A stretch of DNA of 45,440 nucleotides from Candidatus Woesearchaeota archaeon. GTDB taxonomy: Archaea; Nanobdellota; Nanobdellia; Woesearchaeales; JAGVYF01. The translations under genes and the position numbers were made by a program. Positions 6,216 through 18,898 of this stretch are shown piece after piece (position 1 is the stretch's first letter; each line of letters begins with the position of its first letter). The DNA lies in NCBI GenBank assembly GCA_023264635.1, contig JAHFLT010000010.1, positions 1-45,440 of the forward strand, read 5' to 3'. The notes under the pieces were generated by a model. The model was not told where the DNA came from, ran no database searches, and saw only the letters and a program-made list of their open reading frames with translations.

Positions 6216-7097
6216 TTACCTTTTCTCTAGCGTCCAGCTAACAGGAAGATATGCTCCCCGTTTCAGAACTGGGTCACATACAAGATTGTTGACCAGCGCT
6301 TTTTTGTTTTCATAGTCTAAATCAACAGGGTTATCAAAATCATTAGGATAAAGATAAGAATTGAGAATGTATTGATCCAAAAAATCATGTTTGTATGTGC
6401 GCCATTTTTTGCTTGTGTAGGCAACAGCTTCCTCGAATGAAACCTTTCCATTTTTGTCCGTGTCAGCAGCTCTGGTAGTGAATGCACTGAAGAAGTCTGC
6501 ATTGCTACAATAATTTCTGTCACTCCAGGAGAGGTGAGTCCTGTTGGTTGCAGAGACTTGTGCTGCATACCGTGCAACTGACCGATCTAACAGTGTTTCA
6601 GAGTTACATGCTGAATAAAACGCAGCTGTTTTTGCTTTTGTTGTGTTGATTAACATACTAAGCTGCAAACCGCTTATATTCTCCCCATAATCAGGATAGA
6701 GCACTCCATCATCTCCTCCGTGACTCAAAATAGAGAGAATAACTTCGTCACCTCTATTCAAGTTCTTTGTTTTTTCCCTAAATGCCTGTTCCAGCTTTTC
6801 ATACGTCCCTTCCAAGAGAGGCATTTCATCAATCTCTCCTTTAAGCGCAATAGAATTATCCTGTTTATCTGGATTTTTGTCGTTATAGAGGATGGTGATA
6901 TACTCTTTTGGAACTCCTAACTCCCTTATTGCTTGATAAGTTCCTGCTGCATTTCTCCAGGTAGACTTTTTGTCAATAGGGTCTTTGGCAGTTGTATCTC
7001 GGAAAGAAGAGAAAATAAAGGCAACTCTTTTGGGCGGGTCAGCGCATGCTTGTGTCGATAACAATAAAAGTAACGTCACAATACCTGTTTTTTTCAT
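6216..7097 (-). CDS. Secreted caspase-fold (clan CD) peptidase-like protein with EF-hand loop
   Basis: Residues 1-20 form a signal peptide (MKKTGIVTLLLLLSTQACA), with a weak lipobox before the cysteine. The body carries two hallmarks of clan CD cysteine peptidases (C13/C14): LSILSHGGDDG with the catalytic His-Gly, and AAFYSACNSE with a Ser-Ala-Cys catalytic cysteine. Further on, DTDKNGKVSFEE is a textbook EF-hand calcium loop (D-x-D-x-N-G-x-x-x-x-x-E). About 293 residues. The ATG at 7097 follows a GAGGG ribosome site; a TATA-like CTTTTATAG lies at 7146-7154. An extracellular, calcium-dependent protease is the natural inference, but the substrate and peptide specificity are unknown. Confidence 0.75.
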   Translation of the reverse strand: MKKTGIVTLLLLLSTQACADPPKRVAFIFSSFRDTTAKDPIDKKSTWRNAAGTYQAIRELGVPKEYITILYNDKNPDKQDNSIALKGEIDEMPLLEGTYEKLEQAFREKTKNLNRGDEVILSILSHGGDDGVLYPDYGENISGLQLSMLINTTKAKTAAFYSACNSETLLDRSVARYAAQVSATNRTHLSWSDRNYCSNADFFSAFTTRAADTDKNGKVSFEEAVAYTSKKWRTYKHDFLDQYILNSYLYPNDFDNPVDLDYENKKALVNNLVCDPVLKRGAYLPVSWTLEKR

Positions 7098-7165
7098 AGA
7101 CAACCCTCTTCGGTGATTTTGGTCTATTCACGATGCAAGTCGCTGCTTTTATAGGTATTGTATAT

Positions 7166-7230: not shown

Positions 7231-7992
7231 TCACTTTTTGGTGTACTTGTTTGCTACATGCGTTCTCAATTGCTGGACACTATTTTCCGTGTCATTTCCA
7301 CGGCGTAGCTGAACGAGGAGAGTAGTTAATTTCTTATCTACAACTGCTCCCTCACCGGGCAGATAATCCATTACGTGAAACCTTGGGTCATGGCCAGGAG
7401 TTTTGTACCATTCATTATCCTTCAAGGGTTCGAGATATAATGCTTCGGGATAGGACTCACACCCAGCACAATCAGGGATTCTTCCGTCATTAATGAAGAC
7501 GCCACCTAATGCACGCATGTCAAAAGTTCCCTGTCCAAAGTTAACAAACAGGCCACCTCTTGCATACCAGCCAAGTAATGCTCCTCTCGTGTAATTGATT
7601 ATGCATCCATTATTTACCTCATCAACATTGATGATACTCTCAGTATGTCTAAGCTCAAGAATGCCTCTCTCAAGACGATATCCGTAACCAGAGCCACATT
7701 CATCCCTCGTAATTATTACGCGTTTTGCCACTTCTGCATTGAGTAATGCTGTGTAAAAAATCCCCTGGTATTTCGGTGGGCATGCAGGAAAGTCTGCATC
7801 AGTAACGGTGGAAAAAGCATTGGAGTATGGGGCAAGCATAGAGACAGTCTCTTCCAGTACTTGTTTGTACTCAATTTCTCTGTTTTCAACATAATGTACC
7901 CATTGGGCATAGACTTCAGCAACTGGATTACTGCGCAGAGATGTTTTCTCATCTGGCTTTCCAACTCCCCCATAAAATTTAGTAAGGTTCAT
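7231..7992 (-). CDS. GKPDEK-family protein, copy 1 (predicted beta-solenoid)
   Basis: A 253-residue protein of a family I do not recognise, with relatives at 7979-8794, 17460-18242 and, by N-terminus only, 18239-18898. It opens with YGGVGKPDEK followed by an NP pair, then a helical stretch, GIFYTALLN, and a glycine-rich core of repeating turns: GILEL, GCIINY, GLFVNFG, GVFINDG at 17-21 residue spacing. This suggests a short beta-solenoid. A CAGC pair follows, then ALYLEPL. No signal peptide or membrane segment is seen. The start at 7992 overlaps the previous gene by 14 bases, so it is the last gene of an aspS-led operon. The function is unknown. Confidence 0.7.
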   Translation of the reverse strand: MNLTKFYGGVGKPDEKTSLRSNPVAEVYAQWVHYVENREIEYKQVLEETVSMLAPYSNAFSTVTDADFPACPPKYQGIFYTALLNAEVAKRVIITRDECGSGYGYRLERGILELRHTESIINVDEVNNGCIINYTRGALLGWYARGGLFVNFGQGTFDMRALGGVFINDGRIPDCAGCESYPEALYLEPLKDNEWYKTPGHDPRFHVMDYLPGEGAVVDKKLTTLLVQLRRGNDTENSVQQLRTHVANKYTKK

Positions 7993-8794
7993 ATTGTTTG
8001 CAACGCTCTTCAATTCTTTTTACCAGTTCAATAGAATTTTCTGTTGCCGTTGCCTCTTTGAGCTTCTTGCAGAGCAGCGTAAGTGACGTATCATTGACAA
8101 TGAGGACGTTCTTCTTTGCTTTGTGTGAATGAGCGAACCATTCTGTCTCTAATCCATGGCCCCGATAGATTTCCCACCGGTGCTGTCGCGAGAGATAATC
8201 GATGTACAGTGCAGTAGGCTTAGAATGACAAGCAGTGCAACCATACGATGTCCCATAGTTGATAAAGGTTCCAGCCTCAGCAGCTGCGCCCAGATAACCA
8301 GCACCAAGATTAATGAATAATCCTCCTTCTGCATGCCAACCTACCATCACATGAGTGCGTTTACGATTGATTATACAACCACCTTTGGCGGAATTCCCAT
8401 AATCACCAAATACATTGCTATCTGGAGCTTTTACTTCCAGGATTCCTTTCTCTAATTGGAAGCCGTACCAGACGTTATCTAGACCTGGCTGCGTGATTGT
8501 GACGTATTTTACCAATTCCGTATTGAGCAATGCAGTATAGAAAATACCCATATACTTATGCGTGAATGGAAACTCATTGTCTATTAAGTGGCTGATTGCT
8601 TTTTGATGGGATCTCAGTTGAGACTGTCTCAGAAACGTTACTGCCTCTTCCAACAATATTAGAAGGTTACGATGCTGGTCTGCTTCAGCACTCCACTCTC
8701 TGAAGGCAGTAACAATATTGCAAAGGGGATTGGTTACACCAATTGTTGTTTTCTCATCTGGCTTCCCTATCCCACCATAGGATTCAATTCCCAT
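7979..8794 (-). CDS. GKPDEK-family protein, copy 2 (predicted beta-solenoid)
   Basis: A 271-residue paralogue of the downstream gene, with the same order of elements: YGGIGKPDEK at the start, TNP, a helical region, GIFYTALLNTELV, then turns GILEV, GCIINR, GLFINLG and GTFINYG, and finally CTACHSKPTALYIDYL with a CxxC. The shared CxxC and the conserved ALY[LI] after it suggest a metal site or disulfide at the end of the solenoid. It begins one base after the deoxyribosyltransferase-like gene stops, so the two are expected to be translated from one message. The function is unknown; a structural or ligand-binding role is inferred from the repeat pattern. Confidence 0.7.
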   Translation of the reverse strand: MGIESYGGIGKPDEKTTIGVTNPLCNIVTAFREWSAEADQHRNLLILLEEAVTFLRQSQLRSHQKAISHLIDNEFPFTHKYMGIFYTALLNTELVKYVTITQPGLDNVWYGFQLEKGILEVKAPDSNVFGDYGNSAKGGCIINRKRTHVMVGWHAEGGLFINLGAGYLGAAAEAGTFINYGTSYGCTACHSKPTALYIDYLSRQHRWEIYRGHGLETEWFAHSHKAKKNVLIVNDTSLTLLCKKLKEATATENSIELVKRIEERCKQYEPY

Positions 8795-8795
8795 T

Positions 8796-9188
8796 TTAAG
8801 TCTCTTTAATCTCCCCTAAAACATCCTCAATCGTCTTTCTCCGTTTCACAGAAGGATGAAAATAAAACATTGACCGGCTACTATGTTCACCCACAACGTA
8901 GATAAGAGGCTTTCCAAAAGTAAGATGCGATGCTATTGCTGTTCCTAACTCGACATACATTCCCGTTCCGGCGTCATCGCTAAGCAGAACAAAAATATCA
9001 CTTTCTCTAACTCCATCAATATCTGCAAGTGAATACTCACGACTTTCTCTTTCATGATGGTCGTATGGTTTTATCGGCAGATGAACTGTCCAATCACTAG
9101 TGATGGTATGACCATAAACAGCTAGCAGTTGATGTATCTCACGGACTTTTTCTTTTTCGTCAAACCGTGCAGCAATATACCACTTCAT
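8796..9188 (-). CDS. Nucleoside 2-deoxyribosyltransferase-like protein
   Basis: A 130-residue single-domain protein. MKWYIAARFDEKEKVREIHQLL is the first strand and helix of the nucleoside 2-deoxyribosyltransferase fold; SLADIDGVRESDIFVLLSD supplies the acidic middle segment; GTGMYVELGTAIA contains the catalytic glutamate in the family's G-x-x-x-E-x-G motif. Members move or hydrolyse the N-glycosidic bond of deoxynucleosides or their phosphates; which one acts here cannot be told. Its ATG overlaps the aspS stop (ATGA), so it is translationally coupled to aspS. A second member of the superfamily lies at 19825-20235. Confidence 0.75.
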   Translation of the reverse strand: MKWYIAARFDEKEKVREIHQLLAVYGHTITSDWTVHLPIKPYDHHERESREYSLADIDGVRESDIFVLLSDDAGTGMYVELGTAIASHLTFGKPLIYVVGEHSSRSMFYFHPSVKRRKTIEDVLGEIKET

Positions 9189-10975
9189 AAATGTACCATT
9201 TTATTGTTTTTTTTTGCAATGTCTATTTTAATATGCAGGTCCTGTAGTTGTTTCTCAGAAACATCACCTGGAGAGCTGTCCATGGGGTTCTCTGCTGCTT
9301 TGTTCTTCGGGAAAGCAATACATTCACGGATATCCTGTAACCCATTCATTAATGCAACTAGCCTGTCAAAACCCAGTGCAATCCCGCCATGAGGAGGTGC
9401 GCCATACTTGAATGCATTCAGCAAGAAATCAAACTTCTTTGCAGCTTCTTCATATGTGATGCCAACGACTGCGAGAGTTCTTTCCTGAACATCTTTCCTG
9501 TGAATCCTGATACTGCCACCGCCAAGCTCTGTGCCATTCATTACAATATCATACTGACGTGCATGCACTCTGCCCGGCTCGGTTTCAAGATAAATCATGT
9601 CTGTCTCTTTTGGCATGGTGAAAAGATGATGCATGGCAATCCATTTCTCCTCATCTTCACTCCATTCAAATAGCGGAAAGTCAGTCACCCAACAAAATGC
9701 GAACTCATCCTCATTGATGAGATTAAGCTTCTTGCCGAGCACAAGGCGTACTTGCCCCAACGCAGTCAATGCACGTGTAAATGTATCAGCAGAAAACAAT
9801 AACAAGTCACCTTCATGCGCTTTACACGTTATGCAGAGTTGTTGCTGGATGTCTGGTTTGAAGTATTTCGCTATTGAGCTCTCCAACACAAGACCTTTTG
9901 CAACTTTTGCCCATGCCAAACCGGGTAAATGGTACTCTTTTGCAACTGCTTCCAATTGCTCAATTTCTGTCCTGCTGAACTTGCCACAGCCTTTCGCATT
10001 TAGGCAGAAGATGACTCCTTTTTTATCCAAGACGCTCTTGAATATACCAAAGTCGCTGTGCGCCACAATTGAGCTAACATCAGTTAGTTCCAAGCCGAAA
10101 CGTACATCTGGTTTATCTGAACCATAGCGACGCATTGCTTCATCGTACGGTAGCTTTGCAAATGGCGTTTTAATGTTTTTCTTAAGCACTGTTTTGAAAA
10201 TATGCTTGAGTAAACCTTCGACTAAGAGATAGATATCACTCTCATCAACAAAAGACATCTCCATGTCCACTTGTGTAAATTCTGGCTGCCTGTCTGCACG
10301 CAAATCCTCATCACGCAAGCAACGTGCAAGTTGGAAGTATCTGTCACAACCAGCTACCATGAGAAGCTGCTTGAACAACTGCGGACTTTCAGGCAATGCA
10401 TAGAATTTACCAGGATGCCTTCTTGCAGGGACAAGGAAATTACGTGCTCCACCAGGAGTATAACGCATCAGCAGAGGCGTTTCTATCTCCAGAAAGTCCT
10501 GGCCAGACAAATAGGAGCGCACTGCCTGCATTGCTTCATGACGCATCTTTAGGTAATGTTGCATTAAGGGTCTTCGCAAATCAAGATAACGATACGCCAA
10601 ACGCATCTCTTCTGCTGCTTGCTGCCTGTCTTCTATTTCGAAAGGGGGTGTTTCTGCAATGTTGAGAATAGTCAAGGCATCAACCAATATTTCAATCTCC
10701 CCTGTAGGCATCTTTGGATTCTCCATTCCAGGCTTTCTGTTTCTTGCATGACCTGTAATGTGAAGAACCCACTCCCTTCCTATATGTTCTGCTTTCTGAT
10801 GCACTTCTTTCTTGTGGGAAGGGTCAAAGACAACTTGGGTAAGTCCGTAGCGGTCTCTGAGATCAATAAAGATGACGCCGCCGTGATCCCTTCGTGATTG
10901 AACCCAGCCAGAGAGAGTTACTTCTTTGCCGATATTCTTCTTTGTCAGTTCACCGCACGTCTGTGTCCTAAGCAT
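9185..10975 (-). CDS. aspS: Aspartyl-tRNA synthetase, bacterial type with GAD domain
   Basis: Charges tRNA-Asp with aspartate. At 596 residues it has the bacterial layout: OB-fold anticodon-binding domain (residues about 1-110, GWVQSRRDHGGVIFIDLRDR), class II catalytic core with motif 2 FQLARCLRDEDLRADRQPEFTQ, an inserted GAD domain (about 290-410), and motif 3 GIALGFDRLVALM. Archaeal AspRS enzymes are about 430-440 residues and lack the GAD insert, so this gene was probably acquired from bacteria. Whether it is discriminating or also charges tRNA-Asn cannot be read from sequence by eye. It is followed by three coupled minus-strand genes. Confidence 0.93.
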   Translation of the reverse strand: MLRTQTCGELTKKNIGKEVTLSGWVQSRRDHGGVIFIDLRDRYGLTQVVFDPSHKKEVHQKAEHIGREWVLHITGHARNRKPGMENPKMPTGEIEILVDALTILNIAETPPFEIEDRQQAAEEMRLAYRYLDLRRPLMQHYLKMRHEAMQAVRSYLSGQDFLEIETPLLMRYTPGGARNFLVPARRHPGKFYALPESPQLFKQLLMVAGCDRYFQLARCLRDEDLRADRQPEFTQVDMEMSFVDESDIYLLVEGLLKHIFKTVLKKNIKTPFAKLPYDEAMRRYGSDKPDVRFGLELTDVSSIVAHSDFGIFKSVLDKKGVIFCLNAKGCGKFSRTEIEQLEAVAKEYHLPGLAWAKVAKGLVLESSIAKYFKPDIQQQLCITCKAHEGDLLLFSADTFTRALTALGQVRLVLGKKLNLINEDEFAFCWVTDFPLFEWSEDEEKWIAMHHLFTMPKETDMIYLETEPGRVHARQYDIVMNGTELGGGSIRIHRKDVQERTLAVVGITYEEAAKKFDFLLNAFKYGAPPHGGIALGFDRLVALMNGLQDIRECIAFPKNKAAENPMDSSPGDVSEKQLQDLHIKIDIAKKNNKMVHL

Positions 10976-17459: not shown

Positions 17460-18242
17460 CTATTGTTTTTTTGCGTGTTTTTCAGTGTATTCTTGTATGG
17501 CATGGAGAACTCCAAAATAGTCATTCTCAGTCCATTTTCCAAGACGTTCTAGTAGTTTTAGCACTTCGTCATCTAATCGAAATAGATGAATAGAAGCATG
17601 CATCCTATGTGTCCAAAATTGATCCTCATCTGGGTAATGAATCCGAATATGATACGGGGGCTCAATAAAAATTCCTCGTGTTGCACCAAAACCAAAACAG
17701 TCTTTGTTGATAGTCCCTTTGTTTACAAAAGCACCTCCGCTTGCAGCAAATCCCAATTCTTTCAGATGCGCATAATTAACGATGCACCCTCCTTTCGCAA
17801 ACAGCCCAACTTCTCCCCCGTCTGCATAGAGCTCTATAATCCCCTTTTTTAGTGAGTAACCAAGAAACTCGAATGATGGAATGTGATGAGGAACAATAAG
17901 ATGTTCTATTTTCCCTTTGTTAAGAAGTGTAGTGTAATAAAGACCAGCGTAAAAACGAAGCGTTTGGGGTATATCCTTTAGAGGTGTAAAATAGTCATTA
18001 CCACCTATCTTGTTGGGCAACACTATGTCTTCCAATATTTCTGCTGCAGCTTTCTGTAACCTGGCTATCGCTTCTGGAGGTACCCATGTTGGCCGGCAAC
18101 CCGGATGGCACTTTGGCGCTTTCTTTTTTGCATAGGCTATCCACTCCTCCAGTGCTTTTGTAAAGACTATGACGGGATTTGTTGCATCTCTGGGTTTCTT
18201 TTCTTCGGGTTTTCCTATACCGAAATAGGTGTCAATGCTCAT
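17460..18242 (-). CDS. GKPDEK-family protein, copy 3 (predicted beta-solenoid)
   Basis: A 260-residue member of the same unrecognised family as the genes at 7231 and 7979. The N-terminus reads YFGIGKPEEKKPRDATNP; then come a helical part with a CHPGC pair not found in the other copies, LYYTTLLNKGKIEHL, and the core turns GIIELY, GCIVNYA, GAFVNKG and GIFIEPP. The conserved pair near the end of the other copies is here a single cysteine (DCFGFG). The ATG at 18242 overlaps the stop of the upstream copy by 4 bases, so the two are coupled. No signal peptide. The function is unknown. Confidence 0.7.
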   Translation of the reverse strand: MSIDTYFGIGKPEEKKPRDATNPVIVFTKALEEWIAYAKKKAPKCHPGCRPTWVPPEAIARLQKAAAEILEDIVLPNKIGGNDYFTPLKDIPQTLRFYAGLYYTTLLNKGKIEHLIVPHHIPSFEFLGYSLKKGIIELYADGGEVGLFAKGGCIVNYAHLKELGFAASGGAFVNKGTINKDCFGFGATRGIFIEPPYHIRIHYPDEDQFWTHRMHASIHLFRLDDEVLKLLERLGKWTENDYFGVLHAIQEYTEKHAKKQ

Positions 18243-18898
18243 CGTTGCCGCACCCCGCGAGACGCCCAATGGTCAAGATAAGAGGAGATAGAAAATCCGC
18301 AATAGTCTTCGCGGGCAACGGGCCACAAAACATTCTCCGGCAGAAGAAAAAGCCACGCCTTCTGTTTAATTTCTTCCGGCAATATCGCATAATGACGAGA
18401 CCAGAGCTTCTCTACCAAAACAGGATTTATTTCGTTCACGTCTTTAATGGGAACGTATCCATTCACTGAACCAATTGAATACACTTCTTCACCCGCGTGT
18501 TGCAGTTTTCCTCCTTGTGCAACGTATTTGTTTCCATTCCACATGAGATTCTCCGGGTCGAGATAACAATGTAATAGATTTCCTTCCCGCATCATCGCCA
18601 TGCTCAGCCATTCACCGTAACAACTCATCATATCATCAACAACTGCTTGCTGTTCTGGTTGCAATCTCCCTTCCAGTCCTCTGCAGATAAGGTCAAACGC
18701 TTCTGCCGGTCTTGGATGGCGTTCGTAGCCGCGTTCTCGTAATGCTCGCAGGCTGACGTCGAATGTGTAGAGTTTTTTCTCTTTCCCTTCATACACCACT
18801 TTCGGTTCGAAGACAACGTCAGCGAGAGATGGCTTTACAGTAAGTTCCTTCTTTTCATCTGGTTTGCTGATGTTACTGTAAAGAATTTTGTCGAGCAT
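18239..18898 (-). CDS. Protein sharing only the KPDEK N-terminus (copy 4)
   Basis: A 219-residue protein with LYSNISKPDEKKELTVKP at residues about 6-23, clearly the same short N-terminal motif as its three neighbours, but the rest does not follow the solenoid pattern. The middle (AFDLICRGLEGRLQPEQQAVVDDMM) looks helical; later parts contain KYVAQGGKLQHAGEEVY and PENLMWNG. I do not recognise it. A TATA-like TGTTTAAAA (18921-18929) stands 27 bases before the ATG, giving a leaderless transcript that leads into copy 3. The motif may be a targeting or docking tag carried by different bodies. Confidence 0.65.
   Translation of the reverse strand: MLDKILYSNISKPDEKKELTVKPSLADVVFEPKVVYEGKEKKLYTFDVSLRALRERGYERHPRPAEAFDLICRGLEGRLQPEQQAVVDDMMSCYGEWLSMAMMREGNLLHCYLDPENLMWNGNKYVAQGGKLQHAGEEVYSIGSVNGYVPIKDVNEINPVLVEKLWSRHYAILPEEIKQKAWLFLLPENVLWPVAREDYCGFSISSYLDHWASRGVRQR

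Follow-up and report, generated by a model that had tools for sequence, protein, structure and literature searches.

Nanoarchaeal genomes with several diversity-generating retroelements (DGRs) and with orphan target proteins have been described (PMC4372165), and the variable proteins of DPANN DGRs are the nearest described counterparts of one of the two protein families treated here, designated S. The DPANN variable protein AvpA has a C-type lectin fold, AvpA-like proteins outside DGRs occur in Woesearchaeota (PMC5006420), and archaeal DGR targets typically have no recognizable domains (PMC8144416). The second family, designated L, is best compared with the GXGXG family (PF01493), to which subunit C of formylmethanofuran dehydrogenase (FwdC, TIGR03122) and the C-terminal beta-helix of the glutamate synthase large subunit belong. 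Like these, L is built of repeats about 18 residues long, whose turns read G-x-x-A/M-x-G-G. The core fold proposed for L is therefore an already known one, and what is unusual is a short N-terminal peptide, termed the tag, which L shares with the unrelated, DGR-type hypervariable family S; a search of the open-access literature, which was not exhaustive, yielded no report of a tag common to DGR-type proteins and the GXGXG family. In joining a short, conserved peptide at one terminus to bodies that are not related, the two families resemble proteins with cargo or export tags, such as the encapsulin cargo peptides, which unite otherwise unrelated proteins.

The DNA analysed (the window) is a stretch of 45,440 nucleotides from a Candidatus Woesearchaeota archaeon (contig JAHFLT010000010.1 of assembly GCA_023264635.1). 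Its genome (G000) comprises 1.316 Mb in 46 contigs and is 96% complete, and the genome of a congener (G001) served for comparison. L protein 1 is encoded on the reverse strand at positions 7231..7992 (253 aa from the ATG at 7992, defined by the open reading frame and by profile homology) and consists, in this order, of the tag, a helical part, an FYTALLN block, beta-helix coils, and C-terminal helices. The reading frame itself extends over 7231-8013, and the ATG at 7992, which opens the protein with MNLTKFYGGVGKPDEK, is a more plausible start than the TTG at 8013. With this start, the gene overlaps by 14 nt that of L protein 2 (7979..8794, reverse strand, open reading frame of 271 aa), and the two proteins are 36-39% identical. 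L protein 3 (17460..18242, reverse strand, 260 aa) begins with an ATG that overlaps the stop codon of the upstream S gene (18239..18898, reverse strand, 219 aa), a tagged DGR-type variable protein and the first gene of an S-L array. The tags are N-terminal in all four proteins and are encoded, each on the reverse strand, at 7945..7992 for L protein 1 (MNLTKFYGGVGKPDEK), 8750..8794 for L protein 2 (MGIESYGGIGKPDEK), 18198..18242 for L protein 3 (MSIDTYFGIGKPEEK), and 18851..18898 for the S protein (MLDKILYSNISKPDEK). A preliminary description of the window, based on the letters alone, had proposed two adjacent, coupled, and related copies at 7231-8794 with a common N-terminal motif and a GIFYTALLN block, and these features were confirmed: the block is found in both copies and, as [GA][IL][FY]YT[AT]LLN, in all three L proteins of the window, each of which also has GKP[DE]EK within its first 16 residues. 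The assumption that this motif marks a single family had to be abandoned, since the S protein opens with it as well.

Two observations concern the surroundings of the L pair. The gene that follows it (6216-7103, reverse strand) appears by eye to encode a secreted caspase-like or legumain-like peptidase (SHGGDDG ... YSACNSE); in Pfam it gave weak EF-hand matches alone. The pair itself lies downstream of an aspartyl-tRNA synthetase gene (9185-10975), and an S gene is located directly upstream of such a gene in another genome (G123, locus L151), a shared neighbourhood that is possibly a coincidence.

A search of G000 with L protein 2 (7979-8794) gave 50 matches. An early iterative profile search merged S into L, apparently via the common N-terminus; iterative profile searches over the regions fetched around the matches, followed by separation according to the protein body, resolved the two families. 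The three full copies noted previously within 11 kb are real, but they represent an undercount, as the L proteins of G000 that reach 200 aa or more number at least 22, with fragments in addition. The congener has 12 or more members, and distant relatives were detected in 7 further genomes out of 353 in an order-wide profile search. The densest array of L-type genes seen (locus L184, contig C65 of G294, 4.5-17.7 kb) comprises about 12 tandem genes in about 13 kb, with the variant N-terminus RYGxM..GE. The regular coil repeat that had been described for the window copies proved to be a property of the family: over 33 L proteins, 35 neighbouring pairs of the coil motif are spaced by 16-22 aa, mostly 18-19, compared with a mean of 0.07 and a maximum of 1 in 200 residue shuffles. 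A CxxC motif is indeed present in the two neighbouring copies, but it occurs in only 4 of the 33 L proteins and is placed elsewhere in the other two, and the suggestion of a metal or disulfide site conserved throughout the family is therefore ruled out.

Among the 29 L proteins compared with the family models, including those of the window, none reached the Pfam gathering score for GXGXG or gave a convincing match to any other model, and the window proteins matched no Pfam or NCBIfam model, TIGR03122 (FwdC/FmdC) included. A relationship became apparent with the L profile, which matched FwdC chains in the PDB (8rja_C, E 2.8e-9; 9sfi_R, 8e-9; 7bkb_I, 5.5e-6) in two separate stretches over the coils, a match that recurred with a wider alignment. 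A distant relative found by the L profile at 7.3e-14 (locus L187, genome G084) passes the Pfam GXGXG threshold (37.1 vs 32.5 bits) and matches TIGR03122 with E 2.1e-28, its 99.3 bits being below the equivalog cut-off of 130.65; two other distant relatives match the same model at 1e-22 to 1e-24. Structure prediction was less informative, since the models of L and S are shallow, having been built with the window proteins and one related-locus protein only. The AlphaFold model of L, obtained from the three window sequences, is of low confidence (pLDDT 60, pTM 0.65); in it, short strands lie between a helical part at the N-terminus and further helices at the C-terminus. Foldseek searches with this model gave nothing significant (E 1.5 or worse); the top five matches included FwdC and glutamate synthase, the pair of proteins in which the GXGXG beta-helix fold is known. 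In L protein 2, the coils are placed at approximately 8198..8464 on the reverse strand (residues about 111-199), with limits based on the model strands, the profile alignment to FwdC, and the coil motif. The beta-solenoid core predicted in the preliminary description is thus backed by the paralogous family, the solenoid-type repeat, and the FwdC match, but the AlphaFold model alone is no proof; the accompanying statement that no known family fits does not hold, given the distant GXGXG/FwdC-type repeats matched by the profile. From the sequences, we consider it very probable that the core of L is a beta-helix of the GXGXG type. In view of the FwdC match, the matches of distant relatives to the GXGXG and TIGR03122 models, and the coil spacing, L is regarded here as a divergent GXGXG-like branch and not as FwdC. 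In contrast to GXGXG members, the window L proteins remain under every curated cut-off, and L adds the tag, the helical part, and the C-terminal helices and forms dozens of divergent paralogs.

The S family comprises about 29 intact copies in G000 (29 exceed 200 aa) as well as fragments, with bodies unrelated to those of L. Its mean column identity is 69%, and a hypervariable stretch is followed by a fixed ASRGV end. In the window protein, the hypervariable (VR-like) region extends over approximately 18268..18316 on the reverse strand, as delimited by codon-position entropy and alignment, and the conserved 3' end occupies 18239..18267 on the same strand, encodes ASRGVRQR followed by the stop codon, is IMH-like, and includes the ATG at which L protein 3 starts. 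In the variable region (columns 201-210), entropy amounts to 1.38, 1.19, and 0.75 at codon positions 1, 2, and 3, respectively, with mostly C or T at position 3, which is the signature expected of a DGR target and the reverse of the pattern in most of the gene. Indels, which mutation of adenines alone would not generate, occur in the variable regions as well. Perfect or near-perfect hairpins are located just 3' of the S stop codon in several copies (z = -7.9 for one that was folded). Downstream of six S genes (loci L076, L083, L087, L090, L096, and L079), two or three conserved hairpins follow one another, CCAAAGAAATTCGTCACGAATTTCTTGG and others. Upstream of many S genes that open an array, L083, L090, and L091 among them, a TTTTTAA-like box can be seen by eye some 25-30 nt ahead of the ATG, which suggests leaderless archaeal transcripts.

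A link of S to DGRs comes from its relatives in other genomes. In G223 and G258, an AAC-rich template repeat lies downstream of the S gene, together with a gene for a DGR-type reverse transcriptase (RVT_1, 4.3e-24). The G223 template repeat and variable region differ by 11 mismatches at A and by none at 49 non-A sites; the G258 pair is less clean (13 at A, 8 elsewhere). The congener has a DGR of its own with a different target, where 17 differences are at A and 2 elsewhere. On this evidence, S can be assigned to the DGR-type variable proteins with high confidence. It resembles those described from DPANN archaea (AvpA and others; PMC4372165, PMC5006420) in the template repeat and reverse transcriptase adjoining its relatives, in the adenine-specific differences of these, in the fixed 3' end, and in the hairpin. 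It differs in its about 29 dispersed copies, in the tag common to an unrelated family, and in that neither a template-repeat-like copy nor a DGR reverse transcriptase was found in the 96% complete G000 (0 candidates, whereas the congener gives E 9e-111), so that present-day mutagenesis of S in this genome is only putative. The sole reverse transcriptase match in G000 was rejected as a DGR component because it belongs to a Ty3/gypsy-like element, whose remains (zinc-knuckle gag, protease, reverse transcriptase, and integrase; contig C2, locus L163, 4108 bp) are probably eukaryotic contamination. A profile search of the PDB with S gave no significant match and none to any DGR variable protein, and the S model, in which a C-type lectin fold was looked for, has a pLDDT of 39.5.

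The part common to L and S spans only about 15-20 residues. A degenerate codon pattern for KP[DE]EK matched 55 times in G000 and five times in the congener, the reversed pattern used as control not once in either. In G000, 43 of the 55 matches are located at N-termini, 29 of them in S and 14 in L; those of the remainder seen in reading frames are mostly in charged linkers. Other L copies carry variants (GKPEDK, RRPEEK, GPPDEK), and the L copies of the congener have looser ones (GKPEKK, SSPDRR, NKPDEK). S relatives in other genomes mostly align from about position 23-37 onward, i.e., without the tag, and most S-like domains of the order begin only beyond the tag region, with N-termini of a different kind in front of them. 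The N-terminus of distant L relatives is possibly related to the tag, that of distant S relatives is not, and the tag was therefore probably L's first; its transfer from L to S, and not in the opposite direction, is accordingly the probable course of events. The tag itself may be a docking or sorting signal. A role as encapsulin cargo peptide was ruled out, since no match to an encapsulin shell gene (PF04454) was found in G000; in contrast to encapsulin cargo, the tag also has no known partner. A separate case of a common N-terminal motif was seen beside a distant L relative (loci L188 and L197, contig C10 of G128), where three adjacent genes share 'M-x-EGELE-x-x-I' on helical, GXGXG-type beta-helix, and TPR-like bodies and adjoin genes for a PP2C phosphatase and a kinase-like protein.

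The chief rival to a docking function of the tag is that it has no address function at all and represents the start of an ancestral L gene, behind which S was inserted in frame, with promoter and translation signals coming along and with later copies inheriting the tag by duplication. The arrangement of the genes fits such a course in several respects: where S and L co-occur, S is first in transcription order, S often heads arrays with a short upstream region of its own, the genes overlap at ATGA, and the S and L tags are identical in up to 33 of 36 nt. Comparison with the congener, in which L is found at the same loci, points in the same direction, because at one locus with the same flanks G000 has two S genes in tandem (contig C14) and the congener a single L gene (contig C69), the downstream dITPase-like gene being 70% and the upstream gene 66% identical; such a swap fits insertion at L starts. 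At another locus shared by the two genomes, an S gene precedes five L genes in G000. Nevertheless, KP[DE]EK has been kept in L proteins that are otherwise only 20-35% identical, and the third codon positions of the S tag vary more than positions 1 and 2. As the tag residues are constant while third positions vary, the constraint acts on the protein, and the tag appears to be under selection as a peptide, apparently since its transfer. For these reasons we regard an inert gene start as a somewhat less likely explanation than docking.

Less probable still is a function in intracellular defence, in which S and L would sense viral or plasmid antigens and the tag would link both to a common effector. 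DGR-diversified putative antigen sensors are known from multicellular bacteria (PMC10907252), the S and L proteins are predicted to be soluble (no signal-peptide-like or transmembrane stretch was found by hydropathy in 29 S and 22 L proteins), and S of the congener carries a prokaryotic RING-like finger (1.1e-6, just below the cut-off); however, there was no PADLOC match, and the arrays are scattered over 32 sites with unrelated genes on either side, and inspection of these flanks by eye revealed no recurring partner or effector. That L proteins are structural subunits functionally akin to FwdC within a metabolic complex is very improbable, because the match of the L profile to FwdC is confined to the generic repeat, even the closest relative (99.3 vs 130.65 bits) misses the TIGR03122 cut-off, and high copy number, tandem arrays, and strong divergence ill suit one enzyme subunit. 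A phage origin was ruled against by the lack of any significant PHROG match and of any IMG/VR relative.

We therefore return to the docking or sorting tag that was moved from L onto DGR-type S and unites two diversified recognition sets, a reading of the whole that we put forward tentatively. The L proteins, about 215-365 aa long, would serve in recognition or as scaffolds and not as enzymes. Each would consist of the short tag, a helical part with the FYTALLN block at its end, a right-handed GXGXG/FwdC-type beta-helix whose coils, about 18 residues each, differ in number between members, and C-terminal helices, and the copies would have multiplied via tandem and dispersed duplication. By recombination at L loci, in line with the locus at which two S genes stand in place of L, the tag may have passed to S, displacing the N-terminal part of the latter. 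S would then have multiplied until about 29 copies existed, some on their own and others leading S-L arrays. Most likely, the tag would be an invariant docking or sorting peptide through which both sets reach one partner, in the cytoplasm or in the cell envelope, and diverse binding surfaces might be provided by the coil faces in L and by the hypervariable C-terminus in S. It is conceivable, if doubtful, that the organism, a DPANN-like archaeon, thereby possesses a repertoire of about 50 proteins comparable to antigen receptors, all of which would begin with a constant docking peptide that is transferable and joined to one of two unrelated bodies, the beta-helix proteins (L) being diversified by duplication and S by targeted mutation, with its own retroelement absent from the assembly.

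The findings suggest that two sets of proteins, both rapidly diversified, use a common docking signal and that DGR targets could spread to dozens of loci remote from any reverse transcriptase. They also suggest a possible route by which DGR targets acquire a new N-terminal module, namely by taking the place of another gene's body where that gene resides. The tag itself provides a handle, as its binder should show where L and S act, be it in host contact, at the envelope, or in the cytoplasm.
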